DNA of 58,729 bases, taken from positions 1 through 58,729 of the IMG/VR virus record IMGVR_UViG_3300008108_008089; one strand, 5' to 3'. This DNA comes from a virus. Below the pieces are notes generated by a model. That model ran no database searches. It saw only the letters and a program-made list of their open reading frames with translations, and was not told the origin of the DNA. Numbering within the stretch: the first letter of the stretch is position 1; each line of letters begins with the position of its first letter. Shown here piece after piece: positions 13,269 to 58,729 of the stretch. A program made the position numbers and the translations under genes.

Positions 13269-13640
13269 CTACAGTCCTATAAAGTGCTTTACCAAAAATG
13301 TTGTTGCAAGAATGGTCCAAAGAATGTTAAACCAGATAAGAGTTGGTAGTGTTTTAATAGTTGCTGACCAAATTAGTAGAATACTTGTGATAAATGCAAA
13401 TATATACAGCCACCAAATAGAAATACCAAAGAGCAAACCTGGAATGATGATGAGTGCTTTAGTGGTGAATGCTAGAAACTCAACGGTGTTAGGAACATTC
13501 CAATATTCACGTTGACCCATCGTCTGTAGTGCTTTGACCCACTGGAAATGTTTCTTCACATTCCCATCAAAGACTTCTTGGTTTGTGTAGAAGTTTGGGT
13601 CTTTGTATTGGTAGTTTTTTGGTGTTTTATTGTTTTTCAT
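13269..13640 (-). CDS. multi-helix membrane protein (123 aa)
   Basis: A 123-residue protein with a polar aromatic N-terminus (Tyr/Asn-rich, about 50 residues) and then two to three transmembrane helices (about residues 55-75, 76-95 and 98-120). Not recognised. Its 5' end overlaps the halogenase 3' end by 14 bases, and its stop abuts the propeller gene, so all are co-translated. Confidence 0.65.
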   Translation of the reverse strand: MKNNKTPKNYQYKDPNFYTNQEVFDGNVKKHFQWVKALQTMGQREYWNVPNTVEFLAFTTKALIIIPGLLFGISIWWLYIFAFITSILLIWSATIKTLPTLIWFNILWTILATTFLVKHFIGL

Positions 13641-14976
13641 TCATCTTCTCCAAGAACTCGTCGTGGGTAATTGCTTCATTGTCTGCTACATATTGAATAA
13701 GTTTTTTAAAGCTTGTATATCTTTGTTCCATAAAAGTTCTTGTAAAATTATAGAACTCAAATAGCTTGTGGTGTTCTATAAACTTTTTATTTTTAAGCCC
13801 GAGAAGAATATAAGACCATGAATCAATTTCAAAGAAATTGTGGTCTATAAAATCATTAAGGATAAAGGCTCTTTTATTATTTATATCTAAATAACGTTTT
13901 GATGAAGCAGGTGCATTTTCGTAGGTGTAGTGCTCCCAAAACTCTGTATCGGTTCTTCCACTCATGTAATGAGCATAAATAAAGCCAATGACTTCTTCTT
14001 GATTCTTACGCCAGAAGTTATTGAAATCATCAATAATACTTTGGTCTTTTGTATACATAAGTTCTACATTGCCAAGTAATGCACTAGACCAATCAATAAC
14101 AGTTGACCATATAGAAGTAGCTTCTAGCGGTTCAACAAAACCTGCAGAAAGACCAATCGTAAATACATTCTTTTTCCAAGGTTCTGATAAATAACCTGGT
14201 TCCCAACTAAATGATTTTTCCCTAGGCCATTCAGGTTCATAGCCAAGATAATCAATAATCTCTTCTCTTGCTTGAGCATCATCAATCATGTTGCTATTAA
14301 AAACATAACCGCAACCATAACGAGATTGAAGAGGAATCTTCCACATCCACCCATACTTCATTGCTACTGCTTCTGTGTATGGAGGGATAGGACTTTCTAT
14401 ATCAAGGAAGAAAGGCATAGCAGCATTGACAGTTAAATGGTCTTTAGCAGACACCCAACTAGCTCCCATCTTTTCGTATTGAAAAATTGGATCTGATGCT
14501 GGATAAAATTCTTCTCTATGTGGTTTGAAGGCAACCTTGTTCTGCTCACATAAGCGGGTCATAAAACACCACTCTTCTTGAGGTTCTTGTAGTTTTGCTA
14601 CCTGTGTAAAAAGAGCTGGTGTACCAGAGACATATCTTTCTAAAGAAACCTCTGTAGCAGCAACATTACCAAAACCAACAAATGGGTGATAGAACCAATC
14701 AGAATCTCCACCTTTATGCCAATTTGTAAACTTAATACCCTGCTTAAGTGTTACATCTGCTTCTTGAATTAATTTAGAAACAGGTATTTGTAGTACGTCT
14801 AAAAAGCTAATTAGTTGAGGAGTTGCTCCCTCACCAGCACCAAGAATACCGATTTTGTCTGACTCGATTAAGGTTATTCTTTTTGTTGGAAGAACTGTCT
14901 TTGCATAAAGAGCAACGAGCCACCCTGCTGTACCACCACCAATGATGGTCACATTCTTTATGTCTCTAAGCTCCAT
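13627..14976 (-). CDS. flavin-dependent halogenase (tryptophan halogenase family)
   Basis: A 449-residue protein. The FAD motif GGGTAGW is at 13-19. K78 in TLKQGIKFTNW aligns with the catalytic lysine that carries the hypohalous intermediate. W211-M-W213-K-I-P is the halogenase WxWxIP signature. SAGFVEPLEATS (279-289) matches the late FAD/substrate segment with the catalytic glutamate. So it is expected to halogenate an aromatic or other electron-rich substrate using FADH2, O2 and halide. A viral member, VirX1 of a cyanophage, is known. No flavin reductase gene is seen nearby. Confidence 0.88.
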   Translation of the reverse strand: MELRDIKNVTIIGGGTAGWLVALYAKTVLPTKRITLIESDKIGILGAGEGATPQLISFLDVLQIPVSKLIQEADVTLKQGIKFTNWHKGGDSDWFYHPFVGFGNVAATEVSLERYVSGTPALFTQVAKLQEPQEEWCFMTRLCEQNKVAFKPHREEFYPASDPIFQYEKMGASWVSAKDHLTVNAAMPFFLDIESPIPPYTEAVAMKYGWMWKIPLQSRYGCGYVFNSNMIDDAQAREEIIDYLGYEPEWPREKSFSWEPGYLSEPWKKNVFTIGLSAGFVEPLEATSIWSTVIDWSSALLGNVELMYTKDQSIIDDFNNFWRKNQEEVIGFIYAHYMSGRTDTEFWEHYTYENAPASSKRYLDINNKRAFILNDFIDHNFFEIDSWSYILLGLKNKKFIEHHKLFEFYNFTRTFMEQRYTSFKKLIQYVADNEAITHDEFLEKMNEKQ

Positions 14977-17675: not shown

Positions 17676-17849
17676 TTAACCCCTACTTGAGTAGAACCCT
17701 TTAGCCTTGAACATGACAGGTGGGGATGAAAAGACTCTCATCATCTCTTCCCCGCACTCCGTGCAGGTCACCAGTTCTTCGGCAGCAGTCATGGAACGAA
17801 CGACTTCTCTGTGGTGCTCGTTAGAACACTTATAGTCGTAAGTTGCCAT
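17676..17849 (-). CDS. FmdB-family zinc-ribbon protein (57 aa)
   Basis: A 57-residue FmdB-type zinc ribbon: YDYKCSNEH at the start and CTECGEEMMRVFSSPPVMFKAKGFY, which matches the family pattern CxxCG...R..SxP.....G.GFY. Its ATG overlaps the nrdJ stop (TAATG). FmdB relatives are putative regulators of unknown partner; here the coupling to nrdJ is noteworthy. Confidence 0.8.
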   Translation of the reverse strand: MATYDYKCSNEHHREVVRSMTAAEELVTCTECGEEMMRVFSSPPVMFKAKGFYSSRG

Positions 17850-19897
17850 TACTTATCTTTTTGGTTCTCCACAATAAGCTTAATCTCGCATGCGTCTGTG
17901 GTGCAGTAAGCATCGCCAATAGCATCAGCTGCTAGTCCTGCATACACGCCAGAGAAATCAATAGGGAAGAGTTTCATTATAGAATCTTCATACTCTTCTT
18001 CAGTGATTTGGGTGTAAGGCATTTGTGGGTATGTGAAGTTTCCTGAAGGTAGGAATGAGACAGTTTTAAGCTGTCCGTCATACATGTGAAGGACTGTGCC
18101 TACATGCTCTGATTCCTTTTCAGGATCGAATGAAACTGTGACAGATACAGAGTTATCAGACCAATAGTGTTGTGCAGTTGCAGCAAGGCTCATCTTCTCA
18201 AAGATGGTTACATCTTTCTCTGCACGAGATGCGCCAGATTTAATTGGAAAGAAAACAACACTAGTTGTATCTGGAGATTCAGATGCTGGTTCTACTGTGT
18301 AGTTAGCCATCTTAAAAAGTGGGAGCATTGGGTCTGTGTTTCCAAAACGAATTGCTCGCTTGAAGAACTTACCACCTGGAGTCCAGTGAACTCCTGGTGA
18401 TTCACCTGCAAGGATTGAAACAGTTCCTGATGGTTTTACAGTAGTTGTTTTGATTGATTCACGGATACCAAGCCACTCAGAGTAAGTAACATCATAGCTT
18501 TTAATTGTTGCGTATCCATCGTCCATCCACTTTCGTAGGACTGGGAGTCCGTGGAGGTCTGCAAAGTTTGCAACTCCCGACATAGACGTTCCAATTCTTC
18601 GGTTACGTTGCATAATTGCATTTGTCTCTTCCCAGTGTGTTGGAAGGAGAGTGACAGTTTTTGCGTAGAGATATGCGAATTTAAGTGTTCGCTTGTAATC
18701 TTCGATTGAGTCGTGACGGTTGAGGTAAGTTTCAACGAGAGTGCAGCACTCATAGGATTCAAGTGACTGCTCTGCACACGGGTTGTAACCTGCAACTCGG
18801 TGGTCTTTGTTGTTGATTGGGTCTGCAAGTCTTCCGTATTGTTTAGAAACATCCAGCCAAATTACACCAGGCTCACCGTTTCTGGCAATACCCTCAACAA
18901 TGTTTGAAAGGTCTTGTCCTACTTCAACAGAGACAGAGTTGTTAGACATCCAAGCCCAACCGGGTGCATCTGCATCATAAGAGTTACGCTGTGGGAACTT
19001 CTCTGCATTCTTCAAGTTCAAGAAGTTATCATCATCTAGACGACCAATTAAAAGCTCTGCTGAACGACGAACGTTTCCTGAGACAACACAAACGCCAATA
19101 AGATTTCCAATATCTGCAATGTCTACACGTGTGAGCTTCTCACCTCCACGTCCAGCAAACATTTTGCGGATGTGGTTGTGTAATTTAATTAGTGGGTCGG
19201 GTCCTGCTGCTGTTCCACCAAAAGTTTTGATTGGCTCTCCGAGCGGGCGGATTTCTTTGTAATCAAATACTGGAGCCGCCGTATCTGGTCGTAGGAAAGC
19301 ATCGAGGAGGGCTGTGGTTGATTCCACCCATCCTTCTCTGGTGTCTGGGATGACATAGGTCTCTCCTTCTTCTGGTGTGTAGATTGTAAAGTCTTTGTCA
19401 GCACCTTTGTCATCAAAACCAACACCAACGCCAAGCATTGATGCTTCCATAAGAAATCCAAAAGGTTTTGATGGATTGTTCTTTGTCATCTCTGCAGTTG
19501 AAACAAATGCGCAGTTTTGAAGTGCTGCTGAGTTTCTCTGGACATTAACAATGTTAGTTCCCATTACCCAAAGTCCACGTCCTGGTGGAGTCCACTTCAA
19601 GTTGAATAAACGGTCAAATGCTTCTTTTGCAGATGCTTGTGCGCGAGAGTCATTCCAAGGAAGACGCTGTGATTTGCAATGGTCTTTTTGAATTGAGTAC
19701 ATACCATTAACAACTCGTTCGCAAACATCTGACCAAGATTCTTTAGTTCCATCTTCTTTTAATCGTGAGTATGTGCGAAGAAATGTAATCTCACCTACGG
19801 AGTTACCTGCTGCATCTGTATAACCAAATGGCGCTTTCTTATCCTTATATGTTGCAACAAAGTCTTTTGACAAGGAAAAAGAGAAAGCGATACTCAC
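17849..19897 (-). CDS. nrdJ: adenosylcobalamin-dependent ribonucleotide reductase (class II, RTPR-like)
   Basis: A 682-residue class II reductase that makes deoxynucleotides using B12. C374 and E376 in NPCAEQ are the thiyl-radical cysteine and the acid; C129 (QNCAF) and C384/C385 (ECC) supply the redox pair; C665 and C670 near the end are the shuttle thiols. Length and motifs (VSGNVRRSAE, TVKPSGTVSILAGESPG) fit monomeric RTPR-type enzymes. GTG start with AGGAG upstream. No phage thioredoxin gene is seen, so host thioredoxin and host B12 would be needed. Confidence 0.9.
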   Translation of the reverse strand: MSIAFSFSLSKDFVATYKDKKAPFGYTDAAGNSVGEITFLRTYSRLKEDGTKESWSDVCERVVNGMYSIQKDHCKSQRLPWNDSRAQASAKEAFDRLFNLKWTPPGRGLWVMGTNIVNVQRNSAALQNCAFVSTAEMTKNNPSKPFGFLMEASMLGVGVGFDDKGADKDFTIYTPEEGETYVIPDTREGWVESTTALLDAFLRPDTAAPVFDYKEIRPLGEPIKTFGGTAAGPDPLIKLHNHIRKMFAGRGGEKLTRVDIADIGNLIGVCVVSGNVRRSAELLIGRLDDDNFLNLKNAEKFPQRNSYDADAPGWAWMSNNSVSVEVGQDLSNIVEGIARNGEPGVIWLDVSKQYGRLADPINNKDHRVAGYNPCAEQSLESYECCTLVETYLNRHDSIEDYKRTLKFAYLYAKTVTLLPTHWEETNAIMQRNRRIGTSMSGVANFADLHGLPVLRKWMDDGYATIKSYDVTYSEWLGIRESIKTTTVKPSGTVSILAGESPGVHWTPGGKFFKRAIRFGNTDPMLPLFKMANYTVEPASESPDTTSVVFFPIKSGASRAEKDVTIFEKMSLAATAQHYWSDNSVSVTVSFDPEKESEHVGTVLHMYDGQLKTVSFLPSGNFTYPQMPYTQITEEEYEDSIMKLFPIDFSGVYAGLAADAIGDAYCTTDACEIKLIVENQKDK

Positions 19898-44829: not shown

Positions 44830-45420
44830 CATAACCCCCCATATTTGATAACGATTTGGTAACAAAGTTTTAGCCTCTAACATCACAATAACCCCTACAC
44901 ACCTGACCAGACCTGACCACCTATAGCCCCCAGCCAGACTAACCAGCCAAGCACTAGGCACACCAGGCACACCTGGTCAGACTTACACAAGTTGTTTGTA
45001 TCTCTAGCCAAAACATTTGCTACTCGTCAGTAGCTTCCTCCACCTCCTCCACCACCAGACCCACCACCTACTAACCCACCTACCTCTACTCACAAGCACC
45101 TAGCCCAAGCACTAGCCCCAAGCCTTGACCACCTTGACCACCTAGCCCAAGCACCAACACCTAAACAACACAAGACACACTCAACATTGACAAGCACAAG
45201 CACATAGACACAAAAAAGTAAGAGCCTCTCAACAAAGCAAGCACATAAACACAAAAAAATAACAAGATAATGACAACCTGCCTACTTTTTATAAAACAAA
45301 AACTAAAAAGCACACAACAAAGCACAAGAAAAAACAATCCTGGCAGCAAAACAAAAACCAACAAAACAACGAAAAAAAGCCCGGAACGATTTGGCAAAAA
45401 GCCAAATATAAGCAGAGCCG
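44830..45420. other. A/C-rich, G-poor gene-free region
   Basis: No credible gene. The plus strand is very poor in G (for example 45061-45120 has four G in 60 bases) and rich in CCACC, CCTAGCCC and ACAAAGCACA words; CACCTAGCCCAAGCAC and CTTGACCACC each occur twice. It lies where the minus-strand operon and the plus-strand structural operon diverge. It could be a packaging site, an origin or an R-loop-forming region. Confidence 0.6.
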
Positions 45421-47013: not shown

Positions 47014-48798
47014 GTGGCGGTATTCAAAAAAGAAGAACCAGCACAAGAACCAGTCGTCTCTGAAATTAAGAAACCACGTTCTAGTCGCCGTACGCGTACC
47101 ACTCGTTCCCGTCAAGTTGTTGCGCCAAAAACTACTCCGCAATCAACAGGAATTCTTTCAGTCTTTAGTTCACCGAATTCTCCAGCTCCACTTTCATACA
47201 ACACTCCTCGCTCTATGACTGCAGCAGCAGTCCAAGTCAAAGTAAATGACAAAGGCGAGTTCGAGCAATTTAAAAATCGTCGTTCCGCTTCTTCCTCTGC
47301 ATGGCAAGCAGAAGCTTGGGAATATTACGATGCAATTGGAGAAATCAAATACGCATTTAACTTAGTTGCCTCTGTTGTATCTCGTATTCGTATTTATGCA
47401 GCAGCAATTGATGATCCTTCACAAGCTCCAGTTTCTGTAAATGAATCTCGAGTAGTTGAAGAACGTCTTGCATCTGCAGCAGAGCGTGCTCTAGATCGTC
47501 TAAACTCTGCATATGGCGGTCAAGCAGGTCTTCTTAAAGATGCAGCTCTCAATCTTTCAGTCGCTGGCGAGTGCTACTTGGTACAAATGCCAGCTCGCAC
47601 AGGAAGTGGTGTTCCTGAGTCTTGGGACATTCGTTCTGTTGACGAAGTAGTAACAGATGCTCGTGGTGGATTTAATGTTATTGGTCGCCGCGAACAAGGT
47701 GCAGGACAAGGTGGCGGTTCTGCTTTTGGAGTAAGCAAACTTAATAAGAATGCATTCGTAGGACGCATCTGGCGTTCACATCCTCGTTATTCCGACGAAG
47801 CTGATTCATCACTTCGTGGTTTGCTTGATATGTGTGCTGAACTTCTTCTCCTCAACAGAACATTCCGTGCAACTGCACGTTCTCGTCTCAATGCAGGAGC
47901 ACTTTATCTTCCAGACGGACTTTCTGTTGCTGCACAAGCAGACCCTAACTATCCATACGATTCTGAAGACGGAATGGGAGCGGGCTTCACAGCTGAAGAA
48001 GCAGAAGACGAATTCGAAGAACAACTTATCGATGCGATGACAACTCCGATTCGCGATGAAGAATCTGCGAGCGCTGTTGTTCCTCTCATCATTCGTGGTC
48101 CTGCAGAACTTGGCGACAAGATTAAGCAGTTCAAGTTTGAGCGTTCCTTTGACCCATCACTTGCAGAACGTTCTGACCGTGTACTAGAGCGCATCCTTCA
48201 GGGACTAGATGTTCCAAAGGACATCGTTACAGGTCTTGCAAATGTTAAGTATTCAAATGCAATGCAAATTGATGAATCACTTTACAAGGCACACATTGAG
48301 CCATTGATGCTTTTGATTTCAGATGCTCTAACAGTTGTTTACCTACGTCCATATTTGATGGCTAATGGTTTCACTGAGTCTGAAGTAAATCGAATTGTTG
48401 TTTGGTATGACCCATCAGCAGTTTCTACACGCAATGACCGTGCAGCAGATGCTGATTCAGGATTTGACCGTATGGCAATCTCAGGAGACACATGGCGTCG
48501 TGCTCATGGCTTCTCAGACCAAGATGCACCTACTCCAACAGAAGTTGCACTTCGACTTCTACAAGAGCGTGGAGCAATTACTCCAGAACTTACAGAAGCA
48601 ATGCTCAAAGCAGTAGCGCCTGAAGTTATGCAAGCAGTTCAGCAAGTAAGTCAAGAAAATTCCGTTGCACCAATGTCTCCAGAGTTACAAACTCTTCTTG
48701 ACGGTGCAATTGGTCAAGCTCAACCAACCGAAACGACACCAGCGACTGAAACACCCACCGAGGAGGCAGTACCCCCAACTGAGGAGGTTCAGCAATAA
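47014..48798 (+). CDS. portal protein
   Basis: A 594-residue portal. SASSSAWQAEAWEYYDAIGEIKYAFNLVASVVSRIRIYAA, a long middle with LLLLNRTFRATARSRLNAGALYLPDG, LQGLDVPKDIVTGLANVKYSNAMQIDESLYKAHIEPLM and a Glu/Thr/Pro tail fit actinophage portals. It forms the dodecameric head gate for DNA. Length is normal. GTG start with GAAGGG upstream; TAATG overlap with the next gene. Confidence 0.85.
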   Translation: MAVFKKEEPAQEPVVSEIKKPRSSRRTRTTRSRQVVAPKTTPQSTGILSVFSSPNSPAPLSYNTPRSMTAAAVQVKVNDKGEFEQFKNRRSASSSAWQAEAWEYYDAIGEIKYAFNLVASVVSRIRIYAAAIDDPSQAPVSVNESRVVEERLASAAERALDRLNSAYGGQAGLLKDAALNLSVAGECYLVQMPARTGSGVPESWDIRSVDEVVTDARGGFNVIGRREQGAGQGGGSAFGVSKLNKNAFVGRIWRSHPRYSDEADSSLRGLLDMCAELLLLNRTFRATARSRLNAGALYLPDGLSVAAQADPNYPYDSEDGMGAGFTAEEAEDEFEEQLIDAMTTPIRDEESASAVVPLIIRGPAELGDKIKQFKFERSFDPSLAERSDRVLERILQGLDVPKDIVTGLANVKYSNAMQIDESLYKAHIEPLMLLISDALTVVYLRPYLMANGFTESEVNRIVVWYDPSAVSTRNDRAADADSGFDRMAISGDTWRRAHGFSDQDAPTPTEVALRLLQERGAITPELTEAMLKAVAPEVMQAVQQVSQENSVAPMSPELQTLLDGAIGQAQPTETTPATETPTEEAVPPTEEVQQ

Positions 48799-50135
48799 TG
48801 GCTGAAGAAACTTGCCCCCCTGCAACACAAGATGTTGCTCTTAATCTTGATAACCGTAAAAAAGCAATTGATACTGCAATGTACGGTCCACTTAATCCAA
48901 CAGAACCAAACGATGAGTATTGGCAAGCACTTGCTGACGAATGGCAAGTAGACGCTGAGACAGCAAAGAAACAACGTTGTGGTAACTGTGCTGTCTTTAT
49001 TCAGACTCCAGAGATGCTGGACTGTATTGCTAACGGACTAACAGGGGAGCAGAATGATGAATATGATTCAATTCAAGAAGCTGGTGACCTCGGATATTGC
49101 GAAGCGTTTGATTTTAAGTGCGCTAGTGCTAGGACTTGCCGCGCTTGGGTTTCTGGTGGTCCTGTAACAGCTGCTGCTAAAAAGAAGATTGCACAAACAC
49201 CTGCACCAAAGAAAGACCGTGTCAAAGGTTCTGACAAGAATTCAAAAGGCTCAGCTTCAGGTGGAAAGAAAATCACTTTTACTCCAGCAATTGAATCGTC
49301 TCTTCGCAAGAAGGTAGAAGAGCACAATGAGAAAGCTCCAAAGGGTCGCAAGACTTCTGTCTCAACCCTAAAAGCTGTATATCGCCGTGGTGCTGGTGCC
49401 TACTCTGTTTCACATCGTCCAGGTATGACTCGTAACCAATGGGCAATGGGTCGTGTAAATGCATTCTTGCGCCTACTTAAGTCTGGCAAGCCAAAGAACT
49501 CTGCATACAAAGCAGATAACGATTTACTACCAGCAGCACACCCACGTTCTTCAAAGAAGAACGCTTCTACAATTATCGCTTCAGGTTTAATTCCAGAAGA
49601 ACAAGATTTAGCAGATGCGCTTATTGCAATTACTCGAAAGCATGGACCATTTGATCAAGATGGTGATGGAGTGTGGGCTGGTTACACACCTGCTTATGAG
49701 AACGAAGTTAAAGACATCGGAGTTAAGTGTTCAAACTGCGTATTCTTCCAAGGCCCAAATAAGTGCCAGATTATCTCCCTTGAGGTTGAAGCAGATGGCA
49801 AATGCCGCTTTGCTGTTCTACCAGAGGGTGCAGTGTCAGGTTATGACGTTCCTGTTCGCGATGAAGAAGACCTTGAGCTTTTACTTGCATCCGCTGAAGC
49901 AGATGCAGAACTTAATGTTGAGTTGAAGTCCGAGTTAGATTATGAAACTCCAGAACAAGCAATCTTTGCTATGACAGAATTTGCAGGTCTAGGTTATGAA
50001 GCAGAGTCTGCATTCCGTGCATCTTGGCTTCGTGCAGTTCGCAACAATGAAAACCCATTTAAGCGAGCAGCTGTTCTTGCAACAATGACATACGACAGCA
50101 TGGATTCCGACCTTCTGCCGAAAAGGAAGAGCTAG
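48798..50135 (+). CDS. Cys-rich head protein with DUF5872 domain
   Basis: A 445-residue protein. An N-terminal cysteine cluster (RCGNCAVF, DCIANGL, LGYCEAFDFKCASARTCRAWVSGGP) resembles a HiPIP-like fold. KITFTPAIESSLRKKVEEHNEKAPKGRKTSVSTLKAVYRRGAGAYS...PGMTRNQWAMGRVNAFLRLLKSGK is DUF5872/5824. A second CSNCVFFQGPNKCQI...GKCRF cluster follows. Its place after the portal suggests a head-maturation or internal protein. The end repeats SDLLPKR like NDLLPAAHPRS earlier. Confidence 0.7.
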   Translation: MAEETCPPATQDVALNLDNRKKAIDTAMYGPLNPTEPNDEYWQALADEWQVDAETAKKQRCGNCAVFIQTPEMLDCIANGLTGEQNDEYDSIQEAGDLGYCEAFDFKCASARTCRAWVSGGPVTAAAKKKIAQTPAPKKDRVKGSDKNSKGSASGGKKITFTPAIESSLRKKVEEHNEKAPKGRKTSVSTLKAVYRRGAGAYSVSHRPGMTRNQWAMGRVNAFLRLLKSGKPKNSAYKADNDLLPAAHPRSSKKNASTIIASGLIPEEQDLADALIAITRKHGPFDQDGDGVWAGYTPAYENEVKDIGVKCSNCVFFQGPNKCQIISLEVEADGKCRFAVLPEGAVSGYDVPVRDEEDLELLLASAEADAELNVELKSELDYETPEQAIFAMTEFAGLGYEAESAFRASWLRAVRNNENPFKRAAVLATMTYDSMDSDLLPKRKS

Positions 50136-50137
50136 CA

Positions 50138-53100
50138 ATGGCCAAGTATTCAAAGACACCTAAGCAGCAAGCTGCTATTGCTATTGCAAAGAAGAAAGTT
50201 AAGACTCTTTCTCTAGAACAACAGAATGAAAGAATCCTAGAAGCAGGTTTTGACATAGTTAAATCTGCAAACACTAAATTCTCTGGTTCAAGACTTATTA
50301 CTCGTAGAGCCGCTAAGTCTGTTATGACTCGTTGCTTATCTAAGTATGAGAACGAAACTTATTCGCTGCGCCGTATGCGCACTTTAAAAGAGCTTAATGG
50401 TTATATTCAACTTGCTCAGTACAACAAGGTTTTTTCCGTCTCTCCTGAAAATACAGACTTACTTCCTATTTCACACCCACGTTCAACTCGCAAGCATGAG
50501 CTCAGCACTGCAGAGGTAATGAAGCACCGTGCTCGTTGGATTATTGATGACCCAAATATTCAAGACGACACTGTTCGTTCAATTCTTTCTTCTGCTTTAA
50601 CAGCACATCCAGCTTCACCTGAGTATGAATACTCTATTGCCCTCTTGCAATCAATGCCTCAAGGCTCTGTGCCTCAGTATGCACTTCTTGCTGCTCTAGG
50701 AGATGGAAACTCTCCTGCAGCCCGTCGTGCTCGTGCTATGCGTCAGCGCCGTGACCGTAAGGGTCGCTTTGCTGAAATGGGTGGCGGTCTACGTGCACTT
50801 ATTCGTCGTATTAGTGGAGCAGTTCAATCTCTTAGTGGTCGTGCTGTAGCAACTGATGAAGGTAGCGATACCTTCGATATGGAATTACCAAATGGTGATT
50901 TAGTTCGCGTCCCTGCAAAGTCTGCTGAAGGTGTTAAGGCAATTCTTAAGTCTGCTCAGGGTCCAGATGGATACAGCAAGACTGCAGCAAAGGTAAAAAC
51001 TGGTGACCCAGTTATCGAAGAAGCTGATCTTGTAAAGATTGATGCACCTGCTGGATTTAGTAAAGATGAGAGCTGGTCTCCAAGTGACGTTGATAAAGAG
51101 TATTACGGAACCAAGATTGACCTTGGAACTAAGTACACAGATGATGCATACGATGTTATTAAAATTTCTACACCTAATGCTGCTGCAAAAGATAAGTTTG
51201 AAGCAGCGCAGCAACGCGAGGGTGAAGGACAGAATGTTGTTACTGAAGGAGCAGGAAAGAATGGTTCATTAGACCCAAATCTTCCTGTTTACTTTGTATC
51301 TCGTCGTGGTGAAGATGACAGCAAGCCTTTTGCTGTTGCACAGCGTTGGTCTGATGTTCAAGATTACATTTCACAAGACGAACCTAATTTTGAGAAGGGC
51401 GAACTTCCAAATCCAGCAAAGATGCTAGATGAAGGAGGAGAAGAACCAACTCCAGATACTCCAGAAGAAACTCCTGCATCAGAAGTTCAGGGTGAATTAA
51501 TTCCTAAGGTTTCAAAGAAGAACCTTAAGAAGAATATGAAAGAGTATAAGAAGAATCTAAAGGACTATGAAGAAAACGGTGGGCTATTCCCACTTGACCC
51601 AAGTAAGGACCACATTCTTCTTCCTGATGGTTCTGTAGTTGACGCTGAAACTGGAGAGTTAGAACGCGATGCGTCTGGACAAGCTCCTACAGAAGAGCCA
51701 GCAGTAAAAGCAAAATTAGATGTAGGACCAAAATTAAATCTTCCTGAACAAATAAAAGATAGCGGTAAAAAACCAGCTGAGCCAACTCCTGGTTACTACA
51801 ACGTAGACCGCGGTGAATACACACCTGAAGGCCCTATTGACGGACAAGAAGCTTCTGACTTTACAGATGACCCAGCGGAGCTTGCACAGAAGTTTGATAC
51901 TCCAACTCTTGAGAAATCTCTAGAAGATGGTGTTAAGGGAACAGAAAAATCTCCTGCAACTGGTTATGGAACTTTGCCATTTGAAGATGGAGATGAAATT
52001 GTTCCAGCAGAAGCAATTTACAACGCTCTTAAAGAGCAGGGTGAAGATGCTGATGCAATTCTTGATGGTATTTATGGAAAGAAAGATGCAACTCCAGAAG
52101 TTTCTGATGAAGTTAAAGATGAACTTGGTAAAGACTTACCAGAAGTGCCAGAAATGGAAGGCGGAGACCCAACAGAGCTTCCTACACTTCTTGAAGGTTT
52201 GTCTGACGATGAGAAGGATAACTACGCCAAGACTGGTGAGTATAAGCAATATCTTCCAAAGAATGACACCTTTGATGTTCCAGAAGATTACGCAGAGCTT
52301 TCTCCAGAAGCATTTGATAAAGACCAATACGTAATTCCTGAAGATGCACCTGAAGGATTTAATTACGACCCTGTTGATATTGCTAATTACTACGACACGG
52401 AAGATTTGAAGGGCGAGTTGCGTCGTGCTCTTGAGCCAGGAAATGAAATGCCTGGTTATGGAATGCTTGGCACACAAACCGACGATGGTGAAGAGTATTC
52501 AGCGTATGTTCCAGGCGAAGCAATTCGTGATGCGCTGCAATTACAAGGTGAAGACACCAATGCTTTGACCAAAGAAATCTATGATGAAGGTTTCGCTGGT
52601 CAAGAAGAAGACGCACTGACTCCTGAGCAAATTAATGACGCTCTAGAAGGAGAAGCACCTGATACAGAAGAAATCACACCAGAACCTGCCCAAGAAGCGC
52701 CTACCGAAACCACGGAACAAGCTCCGTCGGATGAAAAGGGACCCGAAGCCGTTGACGGAGTTGCAGTTGGAGAACCAACAGGACCAGCAAAGTTAAAGGC
52801 TAAAACTACTGAACTTAAAGCAGGAGATGTCACAACAAATGACTTCTTCACAATTGAGTCTATAGAACCTTCTGAGTTCCCAGGTAAGTCATGGGTTACT
52901 GGTTACTATCCAGGTCACGTCTCACAAAAAACTAAGTTGTGGAACAACGACACTGATATCTCTGTATATAGAAATATTGATGCTCCTACAAAGGGTGACT
53001 TGCCTGTGCTTTCAAAGCCAAAGGCAAAAGAGTATGACCCTGAAGGAAAGGTTTACAAGAACCCTGAAGGAGTTTGGGTTCCTAAAGATGCTGCTGCACA

Positions 53101-56100
53101 AAAACAATATTTAGCAGATTTTGAAAAATACAACGAAGAACTTGCTCAAGCTAAAGAAATGTGGTCTGCTCCTGAAGGATTAGAAGAGTGGGTTTCTGAA
53201 TCTGAAGCTCCTGTTTACACACCAAGCAAACCTGTCGGTGTTGTTGGGGTTGGAGCAACTGAAGTAAAACCAGGAGACATTGCCTTCAAGAAAGAAGGAA
53301 AGAATGACTTCTACGAGTATTTCATTGTCCAAGATGTAACAACTGATGAAACTGGTAATGCTGTCGTTACAGGTTACTATCCAGGTCATCAGTCTCAAAC
53401 AAAGACTTGGAAGGGCACCACTCCTATCGAAGTAATTCGTGGTGCATCTGATTTACCAGAACCAGGCAAGAAGCCAGCACTCGAGCGTCCAAAGAAGGAT
53501 GACCCTGCATACAAAGAGAAGTATGCAGAGTTCAATGCAGCAAAGAAAGAGTCTGCTGCAACATTTACTCCTCCAATTGATGTAGATGCACTTCCACCTA
53601 AGCCAAAGAAGGTCTCACGCCCAACACCTCCTGCATTTATGGGAGATAAGCTCAAGGCAATTGCTGCTGAAGCAAATGGTGACCCAGTTAAATTTAAAGA
53701 ACTTCTTGCTAATGAAGAAGTAGTTCATCTTGACTTTGAGAGCACTGGAGGATTTACATCTCCAAGCCCAATTCAAGTTTCAATGACCAAGGTTAAAAAT
53801 GGTGAAATCATTGAAGAGAAGACTCTCTTCATGAACCCAGAACAACCACTTGACTCTTTCTATACTGACAAAGACCCTTCAGAAGTTCTTAAAGACTCAG
53901 ATGGAAACCCAATCTCTGATGAGTTCTTGTCTAAGCAGATGTCGCAAGCAGATGCATTTAAAGAAATCTCTGACTTCCTTGGTGCAGACCCAATTGTTTC
54001 TGCACACAACATGCCATTTGATGGAGAAATCCTTCGTCGCAAGATGGCCGAGTATGGACTTGATTACAAGCCAGCTGGCGAGATTGACACACTCTCACTT
54101 GCTCGCAAGGTTATTAATGGAAGCGCAGGAGACCACAAGCTCGAGGCTGTAGCAAATCGTTATGGACTTGCTGAGCCAAACACTGATTGGCACGATGCTT
54201 CTGTTGACGTTGCTGTATTGCCTGGAATTCTTAACAATCTCTTGGATGAGATGGCTGTTACTAAGTCTGGTATCGATGTTCTTGACCTTGAGAAGTCTTC
54301 TGCAGATTATGACAAGGCAAAAGCAGAGTACGACGCATACAAGTCTGGAAAGAGCAAAGCAGACTCCGAACTTGTTATGGCAAAGACTTTTGCAGATGGT
54401 ATGGCTGGAAAAGATGTTCCAGAAACCGATGCTCTTGTCAAGGCTATGCCAAAAGACAAGCCAACTTCAGACGAAGTTTCACCATCTACTTCTGCAAAGC
54501 CAACCGAACTTTCAGATGGAGATTTCCAAGTCGAATCAGTCTTGGGCGGAAACGTATCCAACAACTGGGTATCTGACCCAGAGAACACAACAAATGTTGG
54601 AGCAATTGCTGTTGAAGAGTGGCAACCAGGCGACTTCATCAAGGCAAAGCATGATGGATTCCACGAAATTATTTCTATTACCCCAATTGAAGGCGACGAC
54701 AAGCGTGTGCTTGTTAAGCGCAGACTTCTTGCAAATGGAAAAGAGTATGAATCTGCTTGGGTTAAGTATCAAGCTTACGAAGTATGGCGTCGCAACGGTG
54801 AGCCAGAAGCTGTTCCTGCACCAGAGCCAGAATTAGAACAACCACAACTTGAGATTGATGAAGCTCCTGAAAAGGAAGCAAACGCTGGTAAGTGGAATGA
54901 TTACAACATTGCAGAAGGTACAGATGGTGTCTTCTACGCAGAAAATATTTCTGCTGCAGATGTTCAAGCTCTAAAGGCTGGAACTCTTACTCCTCCTAAG
55001 CTTCCATTCTTTGCACCTCTTGGTGGTGGAAACAATCAGGAAACTGGAGAAGGTTACTTCTTTACTTCAGATGGAAAGCGTTTCTGGGGCAAGTACGGTG
55101 CTGGTGGTGCTCTTATCCGTCGTAAGAATGCAGATGGAGAGTATGAATACTTCCTTGCAAAGCGTTCTAGTTCTTTGTCACAAGGTGGCGGTAAGTGGGG
55201 AATCCCTGGAGGAGCCCATAAAGACCAAACAATTGCTAAGGCTCCTAATGCAACTGCAAAAGAAGAGTTTATGGAAGAAGTTGGCGGAGACATCTCTGCA
55301 CTCGAGCCAATCTACGTTGACACAAACAAAGTCGGCGCTGAATGGGCATACGAAACTTCTGTCTTTGAAGTAGGACCAGATCAGTACAACGATCTTTCAT
55401 CAAAGGATGGAGAGAACACTGCAACTGGTTGGTTCACTGGAGACCAAATTAAGAAAATGGCTGATGCAGAAATGCTTCATCCAGACTTTGCTGATTCTTT
55501 CTCAAATATTGTTAGCAACTTAGAAGATGAAGATGCTAAAACAGATAAGCCAATCCCAGAGCCTGAAGTTAACGTTGAAGATGTACAAGCAACATTTGAT
55601 ACTTCAAACTGGAAAAAGACGGGGTCTCAAGCTGGCTCTAATCAAGGTGCTTTCTATACAGACCCAGACACTGGTAACCAGTATTACGTTAAGAAGCCAA
55701 AGTCTGACAAGCATTTTGCTAATGAGGTTCTTGGTGGAGCACTCTATGAAGAAGCTGGAGTTAAGTTTGGTCGTGCATACAAAGGCATAGACAAAAATGG
55801 AAACTCCGTTCTTGTTTCTCCACTAGTTGAAGGTTCAGATGCAGACTTTGGAAGCAAGAAGAGTGATTCAGATGTAAAGAAAAACGCTCAAGACGATTTT
55901 GCTGTAGATGCTTGGTTAGGTAACTATGATGTTATCGGACTTGAGTATGACAATGTTCTAACCGACAAAGATGGCAATGTAACTCGTATTGATGCTGGAG
56001 GCTCTCTTCTATTCCGTGCACAAGGCGGAACTGATAAGGAGTTTGGTCCAGAGGCAACTCAAGTTGATTCGATGCGTAATCCAAAAGAAAACCCACAAGC

Positions 56101-58729
56101 TTCAGAAATCTTTGGAGATATGACAGATGAGCAAATTGCAGAGTCTGTAAAGAAGGTTCAAGCTGTAAGTGAAGAAAAAATTGATGAACTTGTTGATGCA
56201 GCGTTCCCAGATGATGCAGAAACTGCTGAACAGCTTAAGACAACTCTTAAAGCACGTCGTCAATATCTTATTGACCGTTTCTTAGGTGGACAACCAGCTG
56301 AAGAAACATCAGAGACACCAGAGAAGCCATCTGTTGATTCAAACACAACGGTTCTCGACACTTCAGGTGACTTAGAAGCACAGTTAGCTGATGCTCAAGC
56401 TGCTGGAAAGAAAGTAGCTTTTAAGTACAACGGAAAAGAAAGAGTTGTAACTCCAAAAGGAGTGTGGAAGAACCCACAGAATGGCAACATCAACCTTTCA
56501 GCCATTGATGAAGAGGGTGTAAAGAAGAATTACACACTTTCTAAGTTTGAGCAGAGCGGTTCTACTGCTTCAGAAGCACCAGAGGCTGCTCCAACACCTG
56601 AGAAGGAACTTCCACAAGCTCCAGAGGCTGCTCAGATTGATCCAGCAGAGAAGCAAAAGGTTCTTGATGAAGTCTCTGCTCTTGCAGAAAAACTTTTTGG
56701 TAATAAGGGTAAGACAAAAGACTTACTTGAATCTTTAAAGGGTCAAGATGGTGCTAACACAGACCTGATTGATTCAATTCTTGAAGATATAAACACTCCA
56801 TCTGCTCCTGCAGATGCAACTCCAGAAGAAAAGATTCAATCTGACCTTTCGCAAGCTCTAACTCCAGATGAAGACGCTGCTCCAGAAGATGAAGTAGCGC
56901 CAATTGACCCTGTAGCACTTGCAGAAGAATTAAAGAAGCCTTTAGACCCAGATTTGATTTGGGCAAAGGTAAAAGATGAAAAGGGAATTTCTGTACTTGA
57001 AAACGGTGACATTGTTGTTGCTGAGAATGTAACTCCAGCTGGCTCAACTATTTACACAATGGTTAAGCGCAACGCTGATAATACATTTAGTGTCTATCAC
57101 CGAATCAAAGGTAATGACGGAACTTCTAGAGTTAAAACTCTTGCAGGACGTTGGCACTCATACACTGCTCTCTCTAGCCGTATCGAGAACGAGAAGTGGA
57201 AAGCAAAGATAACTCCAAGTAAAGTTATCTCAAAATCTAAGCCAGAAACTCCAGGAACTATTGCACCTTCTGCAATCCCTACAAAGAAGGGTGCTTACGT
57301 ATCTGCTGATGGCAAGACTCCAATTAAGGTTGGAATGATTGTCAAAGATACCAAGACTGGAAAGATTGGAAAGGTTGTATCTCTTAAGGATGAGCTTGTT
57401 ACATCTAAGAGCAAATCAAACCCACAGGGTTACACCTATACAGATGTTGCAAAAGTCCAATGGGAAGATGGAAAGAAGAATTGGAAGGTTTCAACCTACC
57501 TAGATATTCAAGATACTTCAGGAGTAAAGCCAGATAAACCAGAAGATGATGGACCTACTGGTGGCGGTGGAGGAACACCTACAACCCCTAAGACTCCATC
57601 CAGTCCTGCGCCAGTAAACAGCACAGAGCCTAAAGTTGAGTTGCCTAAATACGAAGGCGCGGATTTAGCAGGTGCTACTTCAATTAAAGATGTAGAAGCA
57701 AAAGCAGTAGATAAAAATTCTATTGGTCATTTAGCTTCATATGGTGCAAACGATTACAGCGATTACAAGCAGTTCTTGCAAGGTGAACTTATTAAAGACC
57801 CTAACTCTAAGAACATGGCTCCTGGCATTTTGGTTCAAAACGCTAACCCAAATGATTCAGACCAAGATTTAACTAGCTATGGAGTTATCTCAAAGCAAGA
57901 TGCAAAGACTGGTGACATTGAGGTTTCATACTTTGATGGTCCTTTAGCTGGACAGACAAAATCTACAAAGTCAGACAAAATCTGGTCCCGTGAAAAGTTT
58001 ATTACTCCAGAGCAAGCAAAAGAATTAGACATTGAAATTGACCAAACTCTATTTGATAAGTCAAAGGCTGCTGCAAAAGCTAAAGGTGAGTTATACGCTA
58101 AACAACAAGCCGAAAAGCTAAAGAAAGCTCAGCAAGCTGCTGAAGCAAAAGCTTTAAAAGATAAGTTCACAGTTAATGGTCCAGGTTTTGCTATTCAAAC
58201 TTTAGATGCAGCCCCTGACTACTCTGTATCTCCTCACCCAAGTGTTCCTTCTTTAGTAGATGCTCTTAAAATGGCAAATAATGACAACCCAGCGGAAGCT
58301 GCTAACGGTTCAACTACTTTGCTTGACTCGGATTCAATTGAGGATTTAGAAGTTCACGTTGGTATGGTTACTGACAAAGATGGTCAAAAGAAAATTCGTC
58401 TGCAATTTACTCTAACAAGCTGGGCTGGAAAGCAAGTAACAGCTAAAGCAGACTCAGACCCAAATATTACAAAGACCAAAGCTTTAAGACTTGATAAATG
58501 GAAAAAGCAACCAGACGGTTCTGTTGTTTGGCAAGACACTTGGGATACCAGCACTGTTGATTCAAACAAGAACGGTGTGACTTTCGAAGGACCTGCTGGA
58601 AAGGGAACTTTCCTTCTTCACCGTGCATCTAAGTCAATAGATGACACCGAAGTCGATTTCTTTAAGTATCACAGTAGTAGTCCATACGCTGTTTCATTTC
58701 ACAACAAAGCAGAGATTTATCTGCCAGCA
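50138..58729 (+). CDS. giant multi-enzyme virion-type protein (partial, at least 2864 aa)
   Basis: An uninterrupted frame from ATG 50138 past the window end. Residues 1-230 end in RRDRKGRFAEMGGGLR, seen in actinophage head proteins. About 350-880 is an acidic linker. Two SH3-like repeats with TGYYPGHxSQxxxxW follow (about 889-945 and 1043-1110). Residues 1190-1370 are a complete DEDDh exonuclease (D1199, E1201, D1295, H1352, D1357). About 1630-1790 is a Nudix domain with box GGAH...EEFMEEVG (1691-1716). About 1820-2050 looks HipA/PI-kinase-like (GSNQGAFY, K1852, RIDAGG). Then more linkers and SH3-like parts. Confidence 0.8.
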   Translation, partial: MAKYSKTPKQQAAIAIAKKKVKTLSLEQQNERILEAGFDIVKSANTKFSGSRLITRRAAKSVMTRCLSKYENETYSLRRMRTLKELNGYIQLAQYNKVFSVSPENTDLLPISHPRSTRKHELSTAEVMKHRARWIIDDPNIQDDTVRSILSSALTAHPASPEYEYSIALLQSMPQGSVPQYALLAALGDGNSPAARRARAMRQRRDRKGRFAEMGGGLRALIRRISGAVQSLSGRAVATDEGSDTFDMELPNGDLVRVPAKSAEGVKAILKSAQGPDGYSKTAAKVKTGDPVIEEADLVKIDAPAGFSKDESWSPSDVDKEYYGTKIDLGTKYTDDAYDVIKISTPNAAAKDKFEAAQQREGEGQNVVTEGAGKNGSLDPNLPVYFVSRRGEDDSKPFAVAQRWSDVQDYISQDEPNFEKGELPNPAKMLDEGGEEPTPDTPEETPASEVQGELIPKVSKKNLKKNMKEYKKNLKDYEENGGLFPLDPSKDHILLPDGSVVDAETGELERDASGQAPTEEPAVKAKLDVGPKLNLPEQIKDSGKKPAEPTPGYYNVDRGEYTPEGPIDGQEASDFTDDPAELAQKFDTPTLEKSLEDGVKGTEKSPATGYGTLPFEDGDEIVPAEAIYNALKEQGEDADAILDGIYGKKDATPEVSDEVKDELGKDLPEVPEMEGGDPTELPTLLEGLSDDEKDNYAKTGEYKQYLPKNDTFDVPEDYAELSPEAFDKDQYVIPEDAPEGFNYDPVDIANYYDTEDLKGELRRALEPGNEMPGYGMLGTQTDDGEEYSAYVPGEAIRDALQLQGEDTNALTKEIYDEGFAGQEEDALTPEQINDALEGEAPDTEEITPEPAQEAPTETTEQAPSDEKGPEAVDGVAVGEPTGPAKLKAKTTELKAGDVTTNDFFTIESIEPSEFPGKSWVTGYYPGHVSQKTKLWNNDTDISVYRNIDAPTKGDLPVLSKPKAKEYDPEGKVYKNPEGVWVPKDAAAQKQYLADFEKYNEELAQAKEMWSAPEGLEEWVSESEAPVYTPSKPVGVVGVGATEVKPGDIAFKKEGKNDFYEYFIVQDVTTDETGNAVVTGYYPGHQSQTKTWKGTTPIEVIRGASDLPEPGKKPALERPKKDDPAYKEKYAEFNAAKKESAATFTPPIDVDALPPKPKKVSRPTPPAFMGDKLKAIAAEANGDPVKFKELLANEEVVHLDFESTGGFTSPSPIQVSMTKVKNGEIIEEKTLFMNPEQPLDSFYTDKDPSEVLKDSDGNPISDEFLSKQMSQADAFKEISDFLGADPIVSAHNMPFDGEILRRKMAEYGLDYKPAGEIDTLSLARKVINGSAGDHKLEAVANRYGLAEPNTDWHDASVDVAVLPGILNNLLDEMAVTKSGIDVLDLEKSSADYDKAKAEYDAYKSGKSKADSELVMAKTFADGMAGKDVPETDALVKAMPKDKPTSDEVSPSTSAKPTELSDGDFQVESVLGGNVSNNWVSDPENTTNVGAIAVEEWQPGDFIKAKHDGFHEIISITPIEGDDKRVLVKRRLLANGKEYESAWVKYQAYEVWRRNGEPEAVPAPEPELEQPQLEIDEAPEKEANAGKWNDYNIAEGTDGVFYAENISAADVQALKAGTLTPPKLPFFAPLGGGNNQETGEGYFFTSDGKRFWGKYGAGGALIRRKNADGEYEYFLAKRSSSLSQGGGKWGIPGGAHKDQTIAKAPNATAKEEFMEEVGGDISALEPIYVDTNKVGAEWAYETSVFEVGPDQYNDLSSKDGENTATGWFTGDQIKKMADAEMLHPDFADSFSNIVSNLEDEDAKTDKPIPEPEVNVEDVQATFDTSNWKKTGSQAGSNQGAFYTDPDTGNQYYVKKPKSDKHFANEVLGGALYEEAGVKFGRAYKGIDKNGNSVLVSPLVEGSDADFGSKKSDSDVKKNAQDDFAVDAWLGNYDVIGLEYDNVLTDKDGNVTRIDAGGSLLFRAQGGTDKEFGPEATQVDSMRNPKENPQASEIFGDMTDEQIAESVKKVQAVSEEKIDELVDAAFPDDAETAEQLKTTLKARRQYLIDRFLGGQPAEETSETPEKPSVDSNTTVLDTSGDLEAQLADAQAAGKKVAFKYNGKERVVTPKGVWKNPQNGNINLSAIDEEGVKKNYTLSKFEQSGSTASEAPEAAPTPEKELPQAPEAAQIDPAEKQKVLDEVSALAEKLFGNKGKTKDLLESLKGQDGANTDLIDSILEDINTPSAPADATPEEKIQSDLSQALTPDEDAAPEDEVAPIDPVALAEELKKPLDPDLIWAKVKDEKGISVLENGDIVVAENVTPAGSTIYTMVKRNADNTFSVYHRIKGNDGTSRVKTLAGRWHSYTALSSRIENEKWKAKITPSKVISKSKPETPGTIAPSAIPTKKGAYVSADGKTPIKVGMIVKDTKTGKIGKVVSLKDELVTSKSKSNPQGYTYTDVAKVQWEDGKKNWKVSTYLDIQDTSGVKPDKPEDDGPTGGGGGTPTTPKTPSSPAPVNSTEPKVELPKYEGADLAGATSIKDVEAKAVDKNSIGHLASYGANDYSDYKQFLQGELIKDPNSKNMAPGILVQNANPNDSDQDLTSYGVISKQDAKTGDIEVSYFDGPLAGQTKSTKSDKIWSREKFITPEQAKELDIEIDQTLFDKSKAAAKAKGELYAKQQAEKLKKAQQAAEAKALKDKFTVNGPGFAIQTLDAAPDYSVSPHPSVPSLVDALKMANNDNPAEAANGSTTLLDSDSIEDLEVHVGMVTDKDGQKKIRLQFTLTSWAGKQVTAKADSDPNITKTKALRLDKWKKQPDGSVVWQDTWDTSTVDSNKNGVTFEGPAGKGTFLLHRASKSIDDTEVDFFKYHSSSPYAVSFHNKAEIYLPA

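Follow-up and report, generated by a model that had tools for sequence, protein, structure and literature searches.

In the virus record IMGVR_UViG_3300008108_008089 (58,729 bases; the window analyzed here is the entire record), a giant gene close to the portal gene encodes a multidomain protein whose conserved core consists of an N-terminal tag related to DUF5824, a kinase-like domain and, at the C-terminus, a predicted ADP-ribosyltransferase (ART) of the DarT-like type, with an exonuclease and a Nudix domain as optional additions. The giant is of a known kind, the phage polyvalent protein, and we consider, with slightly better than even confidence, that it acts as a head-packaged and injected effector that modifies the host. 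The features on which this reading is built are collected in Table 1.

The giant frame itself is genuine. An earlier note, made from the letters alone, had claimed a frame of at least 2864 codons without a stop and had placed its true end to the right of the window; both claims were borne out, since the near-identical contig L005, in which 2 of 2864 residues differ, contains the stop and gives a full protein of 3136 residues, and giant-type frames are kept in related IMG/VR contigs (41 distinct complete kinase-bearing frames). An artefact or chance frame was rejected on the basis of this near-twin, of the frames kept in relatives, and of the probability of such an open run by chance (log10 about -80 at the base composition of the frame). 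Note that one relative is broken at 2705 codons (L006) and that another is split over two frames (L042), which we read as assembly errors. The giant also contains low-complexity linkers and, in a linker region for which the earlier note had asked for HHpred, two copies of a TGYYPGHxSQ stretch (window positions 52898 and 53369, residues 921 and 1078); within residues 2401-3136, Pfam pAdhesive_10 gives a match at E 0.009, under the family's own cut-off. A related giant frame in another record (G007, locus L075) extends over 5184 codons.

The architecture was surveyed in 98 loci, i.e., the window plus 17 and 80 loci from two scans with many contigs in common, which hold 66 distinct kinase-bearing frames, 41 of them complete when L005 is counted. 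The scaffold of DUF5824-like tag, kinase-like domain and DarT-like ART was present in 36 of these 41 frames, in a sample that leans toward close relatives: 19 show the order tag-kinase-DarT and 17 the order tag-exonuclease-Nudix-kinase-DarT, and the five without the full scaffold are L006 (the broken frame), L064, L086, L105 and L107. Other domain orders occur in incomplete frames, such as L092, in which the kinase-like domain precedes the exonuclease and Nudix domains, and therefore the optional domains move. Thus, the polyvalent effector composed of exonuclease, Nudix and kinase-like parts that the earlier note had proposed was correct in its three domain guesses and misplaced in its emphasis, as two of them are optional and the ART belongs to the core. 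The combination of a kinase with an ART points more to the modification of host macromolecules than to the disarming of nucleic-acid or nucleotide-based defences suggested there.

The DarT-like ART begins ~270 bases to the right of the end of the window, and its prediction comes from a 467-residue model (residues 2670-3136) computed from L005 and 31 relatives, with a predicted local distance difference test (pLDDT) score of 88.9. For the last ~170 residues, the top three Foldseek rows are DarT (E 0.007 to 0.02), and in a second structure comparison the first seven rows are also DarT (Z 9.4 to 7.1, a modest level), led by DarT1 with Z 9.4 and a root-mean-square deviation (rmsd) of 3.4 over 147 residues and followed by a tRNA 2'-phosphotransferase in row 8 (Z 5.6) and by Z 4.0 in row 9. 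Across 32 sequences, no variation occurs at H2973, Y3025 and K3088, while at least 90% have R3002 and E3084. No Pfam family was found in residues 2920-3136 at E up to 1, nor any NCBIfam family for the C-terminal domain at E up to 0.01; the sole PDB profile match (E 0.006), which covers a short part of the chain of the E3 SUMO ligase NSE2, was read as chance.

The second constant element, the kinase-like domain, was modeled with AlphaFold2 at a pLDDT of 93.5 and a predicted template modeling (pTM) score of 0.89, and the nearest solved structure is CtkA (Foldseek E 2.5e-7; VIA Z 16.4, rmsd 4.3 over 222 residues). Further VIA folds are CotH (Z 14.7), PI4KIIalpha (13.6), LepB (12.2) and 3dnv (10.5), an entry titled 'MDT Protein' which we take to be HipA. 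The label 'HipA/PI-kinase-like' that had been attached to this segment is therefore right. CtkA is likewise the top PDB chain by sequence alone, with the motifs in a like order, yet at E 0.25. The GSNxG loop and residues K1852, E1863, D1924, N1929, D1931, N1939 and D1952 are found without exception in 19 aligned sequences, and the seven named residues are invariant or kept in at least 90% of 77 more diverse sequences; those to which we assign the roles of catalytic Lys, Glu, Asp/Asn and metal Asp are also conserved in 36 kinase-bearing proteins. Pfam HipA_2 matches weakly, in 2 of the 19 members (best E 0.009) and in one of the 36 proteins (E 2e-4), and is not listed for the window protein. 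The truncated kinases described for polyvalent proteins (PMC5512222) were rejected as an assignment, since the model retains the helical C-terminal subdomain and aligns to CtkA over residues 4-244. When 50,697 phage records were searched by tblastn, 25 records were found, of which 18 match the kinase-like part alone, 6 match the exonuclease only, and that of phage DSL-LC01 gives a longer match. The profile scan of IMG/VR with this domain returned the best 80 of 464 relatives, and the genome scan covered 60 of 98 pattern matches.

A kinase fold does not necessarily act as a kinase, as SidJ uses ATP for another transfer, and the recurrent pairing of this domain with ARTs of different classes would fit a helper of ART chemistry that regulates the adjoining ART or uses ATP for a transfer other than protein phosphorylation. 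We regard this as unlikely, since the nearest folds include the kinases CtkA and PI4K, the domain retains its catalytic Lys, Glu, Asp and Asn, and it was swapped next to a 100% identical ART region in the pair L005/L012, a change that a dedicated regulator would presumably tolerate poorly.

Such allele replacement was observed in two independent pairs of phages that are otherwise nearly identical. Between L005 and L012, the DNA identity falls to 60-87% over residues 1771-2100 against 97-100% in most other 30-codon bins (with two lesser dips of 89-90% at residues 931 and 1621), the ART region is 100% identical while the kinase-like domain differs, and the same divergent segment separates the window from L012. 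This stretch is rich in synonymous changes and is therefore a replaced segment rather than a burst of point mutations. In a second pair (L017 and L019), which is 98.8% identical over 20.1 kb, the gene has only four 90-base bins below 90% identity (57-81%), all of them in the kinase-like domain. The replacing allele, which covers part or the whole of the domain, is ~70% identical in both pairs. Over the 19 pairs compared (median DNA identity of at least 97.5%; L041-L060, with its truncated contig, was set aside), there are three long divergent stretches, independent of one another and few in number: two fall in the kinase-like domain, and the third lies in a linker of the pair L058-L063, where two short ones occur in addition; L015-L045 shows one 30-codon bin at 84%, in the exonuclease. 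In the protein comparison by region, carried out with L007, L016 and L020 set aside for wrongly chosen frames, L044 and L015 are 93-100% alike in five regions and 65% in the C-terminal region. Replacement of kinase-like alleles is what an arms race could produce. The L012 allele stems from a 160.7-kb record (G001, with L012 and L039) that contains two portals and two giants, yet the separate 25.6-kb contig L013 carries the same allele. The presence of two kinase-bearing giants in one phage was rejected: G001 is probably a chimera of two phages, because the scores of its second pair equal those of record G002.

Regarding the optional domains, the complete DEDDh set read earlier in the sequence was upheld, and the exonuclease is confirmed at the sequence level: the segment matches RNase_T, and the giant has all five residues (D1199, E1201, D1295, H1352 and D1357), each conserved in 29 or 30 of 30 sequences. 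Its best NCBIfam matches are PolC/DnaQ-type models (PolC-type E 2e-21), all below their own whole-protein cut-offs. The canonical Nudix box is GX5EX7REUXEEXGU; in the giant its first Glu and its Arg are replaced, so that the 'Nudix-type box' reported previously is not canonical, and the domain is nevertheless supported, at the sequence level, by the match to RenU and by E1710, E1713, E1714 and E1759 (three Glu of the box and one later Glu), kept in 25 of 25 sequences. Pfam NUDIX scored 20.9 bits (E 4e-4) with the segment alone, against a cut-off of 21.1, and was not listed in the whole-protein scan. Note that the window belongs to both conservation sets, from which only identical sequences had been removed. 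These observations bear on the proposal that the giant is a structural protein of the head or of ejection (an internal scaffold or core) whose main role would be assembly or DNA ejection, its enzymatic domains being decayed passengers. Its position beside the portal, its length, its low-complexity linkers and a tag common to a neighboring head-region gene would suit such a role; however, even divergent relatives retain the catalytic residues of the exonuclease, of the Nudix domain and of the kinase-like domain, and the exonuclease and Nudix domains come and go among the giants of relatives, which makes this proposal quite improbable in our view.

The location 'next to the portal' given in the earlier note holds, with one gene of 445 residues intervening. 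This gene shows Cys-rich stretches on both sides of its DUF5824 domain and a weak Pfam match to HIPIP (E 0.015); a gene annotated 'high potential iron-sulfur protein' lies downstream of the giant of DSL-LC01. The N-terminal tag of the giant is common to this 445-residue neighbor and related to DUF5824, although Pfam itself reports DUF5824 in the neighbor alone and not in the giant. A tblastn search of the phage collection with the ~90-residue domain of the neighbor gave 197 records, of which 183 are Salinibacter phages and one is DSL-LC01. Roseobacter phage CRP-823 carries the tag domain in the gene directly after the portal, annotated 'major capsid protein', an annotation that the next gene bears too. 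The DUF5824-like domain is a possible packaging tag; a text search, which covers the literature incompletely, did not find 'DUF5824'. In addition, an RDxxGRFA motif is common to the giants and to downstream frames, one of which is annotated as a capsid maturation protease in DSL-LC01, and the giant is coded among virion structural genes, with the portal upstream and, in DSL-LC01, capsid genes downstream. The annotation of a relative in a Yersinia phage reads 'phage particle associated protein'.

The earlier idea of a polyvalent protein fits this portal neighborhood and also the relatives in which phage head domains are fused to the kinase-like domain. Alternatively, the giant might be made in the infected cell and act late or against superinfecting phages, without being injected, a scenario consistent with DarT itself being a bacterial anti-phage toxin (DarTG, according to the accessible text of PMC9503650) and with packaging in the lineage of the giant being something that we only infer. 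To this scenario we give a low probability, given the portal neighborhood, the MuF and minor-capsid fusions in relatives and the particle-associated annotation of one relative.

The partnership of the kinase-like domain with ARTs recurs well beyond the close relatives. In a scan of 36 proteins with the kinase-like domain, drawn from 31 of 60 loci in genomes and 5 of 10 in phages, PF03496 was found in 16, a PF01129 ART in 3 and a Scabin-like ART in one, together with MuF in 6, Phage_min_cap2 in 3, NUDIX in 4, and HD and 2'-5' RNA ligase in one each; the proteins without an ART match either lack this domain or hold one that escapes detection. Three MuF proteins from bacterial genomes (L116, L122 and L126) join kinase-like and DarT-like domains, and in a Nonomuraea protein a WXG100-like stretch (23.3 bits against a Pfam cut-off of 27) precedes NUDIX, kinase-like and ART domains. 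The kinase-like domain is also carried by Pseudomonas genomes (L135, L137, L141, L146 and L168), several of them of plant-associated species, and in L135 a NUDIX domain follows it. In phages of Proteobacteria (e.g., Yersinia fHe-Yen8-01, Pseudomonas Dolphis and Morganella Mecenats66; six of seven records found were fetched), giants with a 37-40% identical kinase-like domain likewise have a C-terminal ART and a Nudix gene close by, but the ART is of the PF03496 type rather than DarT-like and the Nudix is a separate gene. PF03496 was detected at the C-terminus of five of the six (L003, L022, L023, L024 and L028), the remaining one (L025) being annotated as an ADP-ribosyltransferase though without a Pfam match, and in all six the gene two positions downstream gives a Nudix PHROG match; an iterated profile found no DUF5824-like tag in these giants. 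A hidden Markov model (HMM) of the Nudix domain of the giants recovered neither these neighboring genes nor the NUDIX domain of L135, which PHROG and Pfam profiles did recover, and they are therefore not close relatives of the Nudix domain of the giants. In Gordonia phage Forza, the gene after the portal, gp78, is kinase-like and an ART is encoded by gp80 (E 7e-18), and for the kinase-like giant of Gordonia phage Phendrix (gp66), Pfam reported no ART. A literature search, of incomplete coverage, found no name for this kinase-ART unit.

A close named counterpart is WJZ48510 of phage DSL-LC01, a protein of 3289 residues annotated 'hypothetical protein', which has the same tag, kinase-like and DarT-like domains and follows the portal with three genes between; the exonuclease and Nudix domains were not found in it. 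The available part of its description predicts that DSL-LC01 infects Actinomycetia (PMC10611076). The host of the window virus is probably an actinobacterium as well, because WhiB was found in 9 of 9 related records; among 14 control genomes, only Corynebacterium glutamicum matches.

Compared with known systems, the giant resembles the polyvalent proteins of Iyer et al. 2017 (PMC5512222), which the accessible text describes as very long, multidomain and predicted to be packaged and injected: it is likewise a very long phage protein among head genes that combines an ART with other conflict enzymes, at least two domains of that type lying in one polypeptide. In contrast to what that text reports, namely kinases without the C-terminal subdomain and an ART site of the H-Y-D type, the giant has a full CtkA/PI4K-type fold and an ART that matches DarT by fold, and the tag-kinase-DarT scaffold was not found in the same text. 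CtkA, the proinflammatory kinase of Helicobacter pylori, is alike in fold and motif order, but its solved chain has 325 residues and is no giant; DarT of the DarTG toxin-antitoxin system is alike in fold to the C-terminal domain, whereas the version in the giant lacks a sequence match and lies in a phage head-region giant. In the MuF polymorphic toxins of temperate phages (PMC5576092), to which L116, L122 and L126 relate by joining MuF with giant-type domains, a MuF domain is present that the window protein lacks; the words 'kinase', 'HipA' and 'nudix' are absent from the main text as far as it was accessible. According to the accessible part of PMC9503650, a role on entry has been proposed for ARTs and Nudix domains carried in the head. 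Relative to these sources, in the portions available, the new elements are the full CtkA-type kinase as a constant ART partner, the DarT-like ART in this setting, the DUF5824-like tag, and the natural replacement of kinase alleles.

For the packaged and injected effector that we favor, the N-terminal tag and the place beside the portal suggest that the giant would be produced late in infection, enter the head and reach the next cell together with the DNA. There, the CtkA/HipA-type kinase domain would phosphorylate host macromolecules and the DarT-like domain would ADP-ribosylate host macromolecules; where present, the Nudix domain would clear NAD- or ADP-ribose-type nucleotides and the exonuclease would trim nucleic acid. 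A more specific scheme, to which we attach very little probability, is that the ART puts ADP-ribose on a target in the host, after which the kinase phosphorylates either that target or the ADP-ribose itself, so that host hydrolases of the DarG or ARG type could not take the mark off again. Such a two-step pair would account for one kinase-like domain standing beside at least two ART classes, be it in phages with different hosts, in proteins of the MuF type or in a WXG100-like Nonomuraea protein.

Several observations weigh against an injected host-modifying effector. The match to DarT is one of fold only, with a best Foldseek E of 0.007 and none reaching 0.001; Z 8 was reached by 3 of 998 chains and lies near the middling level of the tool; and no sequence match to DarT was found among PDB chains at E up to 10. 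In the DarT-like domain of L014 and L039, Gln takes the place of the conserved Glu, so that these copies may lack transferase activity. As for allele replacement, L017 and L019 differ in only ~120 codons of the kinase-like domain, and L017 also lacks ~11 codons in the Nudix domain. As for the kinase-ART partnership, 20 of the 36 scanned kinase-bearing proteins show no PF03496. Concerning delivery, a protein of 3136 residues may pass the tail with difficulty, MuF (PF04233) was not found in the window protein by Pfam at E up to 1, and the 'particle associated' label was given by a depositor to a distant relative, for which a search by the name of that Yersinia phage, with incomplete coverage, found no paper. 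Neither did the literature search, of the same coverage, find proteomics or biochemistry of the giant. Finally, the window fragment itself gave no WhiB match.

Table 1. Features of the window and of the giant protein (positions refer to the window unless contig L005 is named; residues are those of the giant except for the 445-residue gene).
Feature	Position	Strand	Basis
Tryptophan halogenase gene	13627-14976	-	Pfam E 2e-73
B12-dependent ribonucleotide reductase	17849-19897	-	
Portal protein	47014..48798	+	PHROG_776 E 1e-108
445-residue gene between portal and giant	48798..50135	+	DUF5824 (PF19141, E 5e-9), residues 157-243
Giant gene	50138..58729	+	ATG start, 2864 codons inside window, open through right edge
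N-terminal tag, ~90 residues (residues 35-122)	50240..50503	+	Iterated HMM seeded from 48798-50135, E 6.6e-28
RDRKGRFA motif (residues 205-212)	50750..50773	+	Recurs in downstream frames of relatives
DEDDh 3'-5' exonuclease, PolC/DnaQ type (residues 1196-1360)	53723..54217	+	Pfam RNase_T E 9e-12; PHROG_192 E 2e-23
RenU-like Nudix domain (residues 1636-1790)	55043..55507	+	PDB RenU Nudix hydrolase E 3e-11
Kinase-like domain (residues 1815-2066), CtkA/PI4K/CotH fold	55580..56335	+	AlphaFold2 model and conservation
Start of C-terminal unit (residues 2670-2864)	58145..58729	+	Model pLDDT 88.9
Predicted DarT-like ART domain (residues 2956-3128)	L005 12249-12767		Best fold matches are DarT

In the rest of the window, a tryptophan halogenase gene and a B12-dependent ribonucleotide reductase lie on the opposite strand (Table 1), and the accessible text on DSL-LC01 (PMC10611076) likewise mentions a tryptophan 7-halogenase homologue. 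The terminase of DSL-LC01 gave no tblastn match in the window. Between 43477 and 45524, no plus-strand frame of at least 60 codons was found, and a C-rich and A-rich low-complexity stretch lies at about 44870-45250.

To our knowledge, few host-takeover factors are known in uncultured actinobacterial viruses. If our reading is right, the kinase-ART pair would be a widespread phage-delivered effector unit, present in these viruses too. The replaced kinase alleles hint at which domain the host puts under pressure, and they provide ready-made pairs for studies of specificity. In addition, should the DUF5824-like tag direct packaging, it could be used to search for further cargo carried in phage heads.
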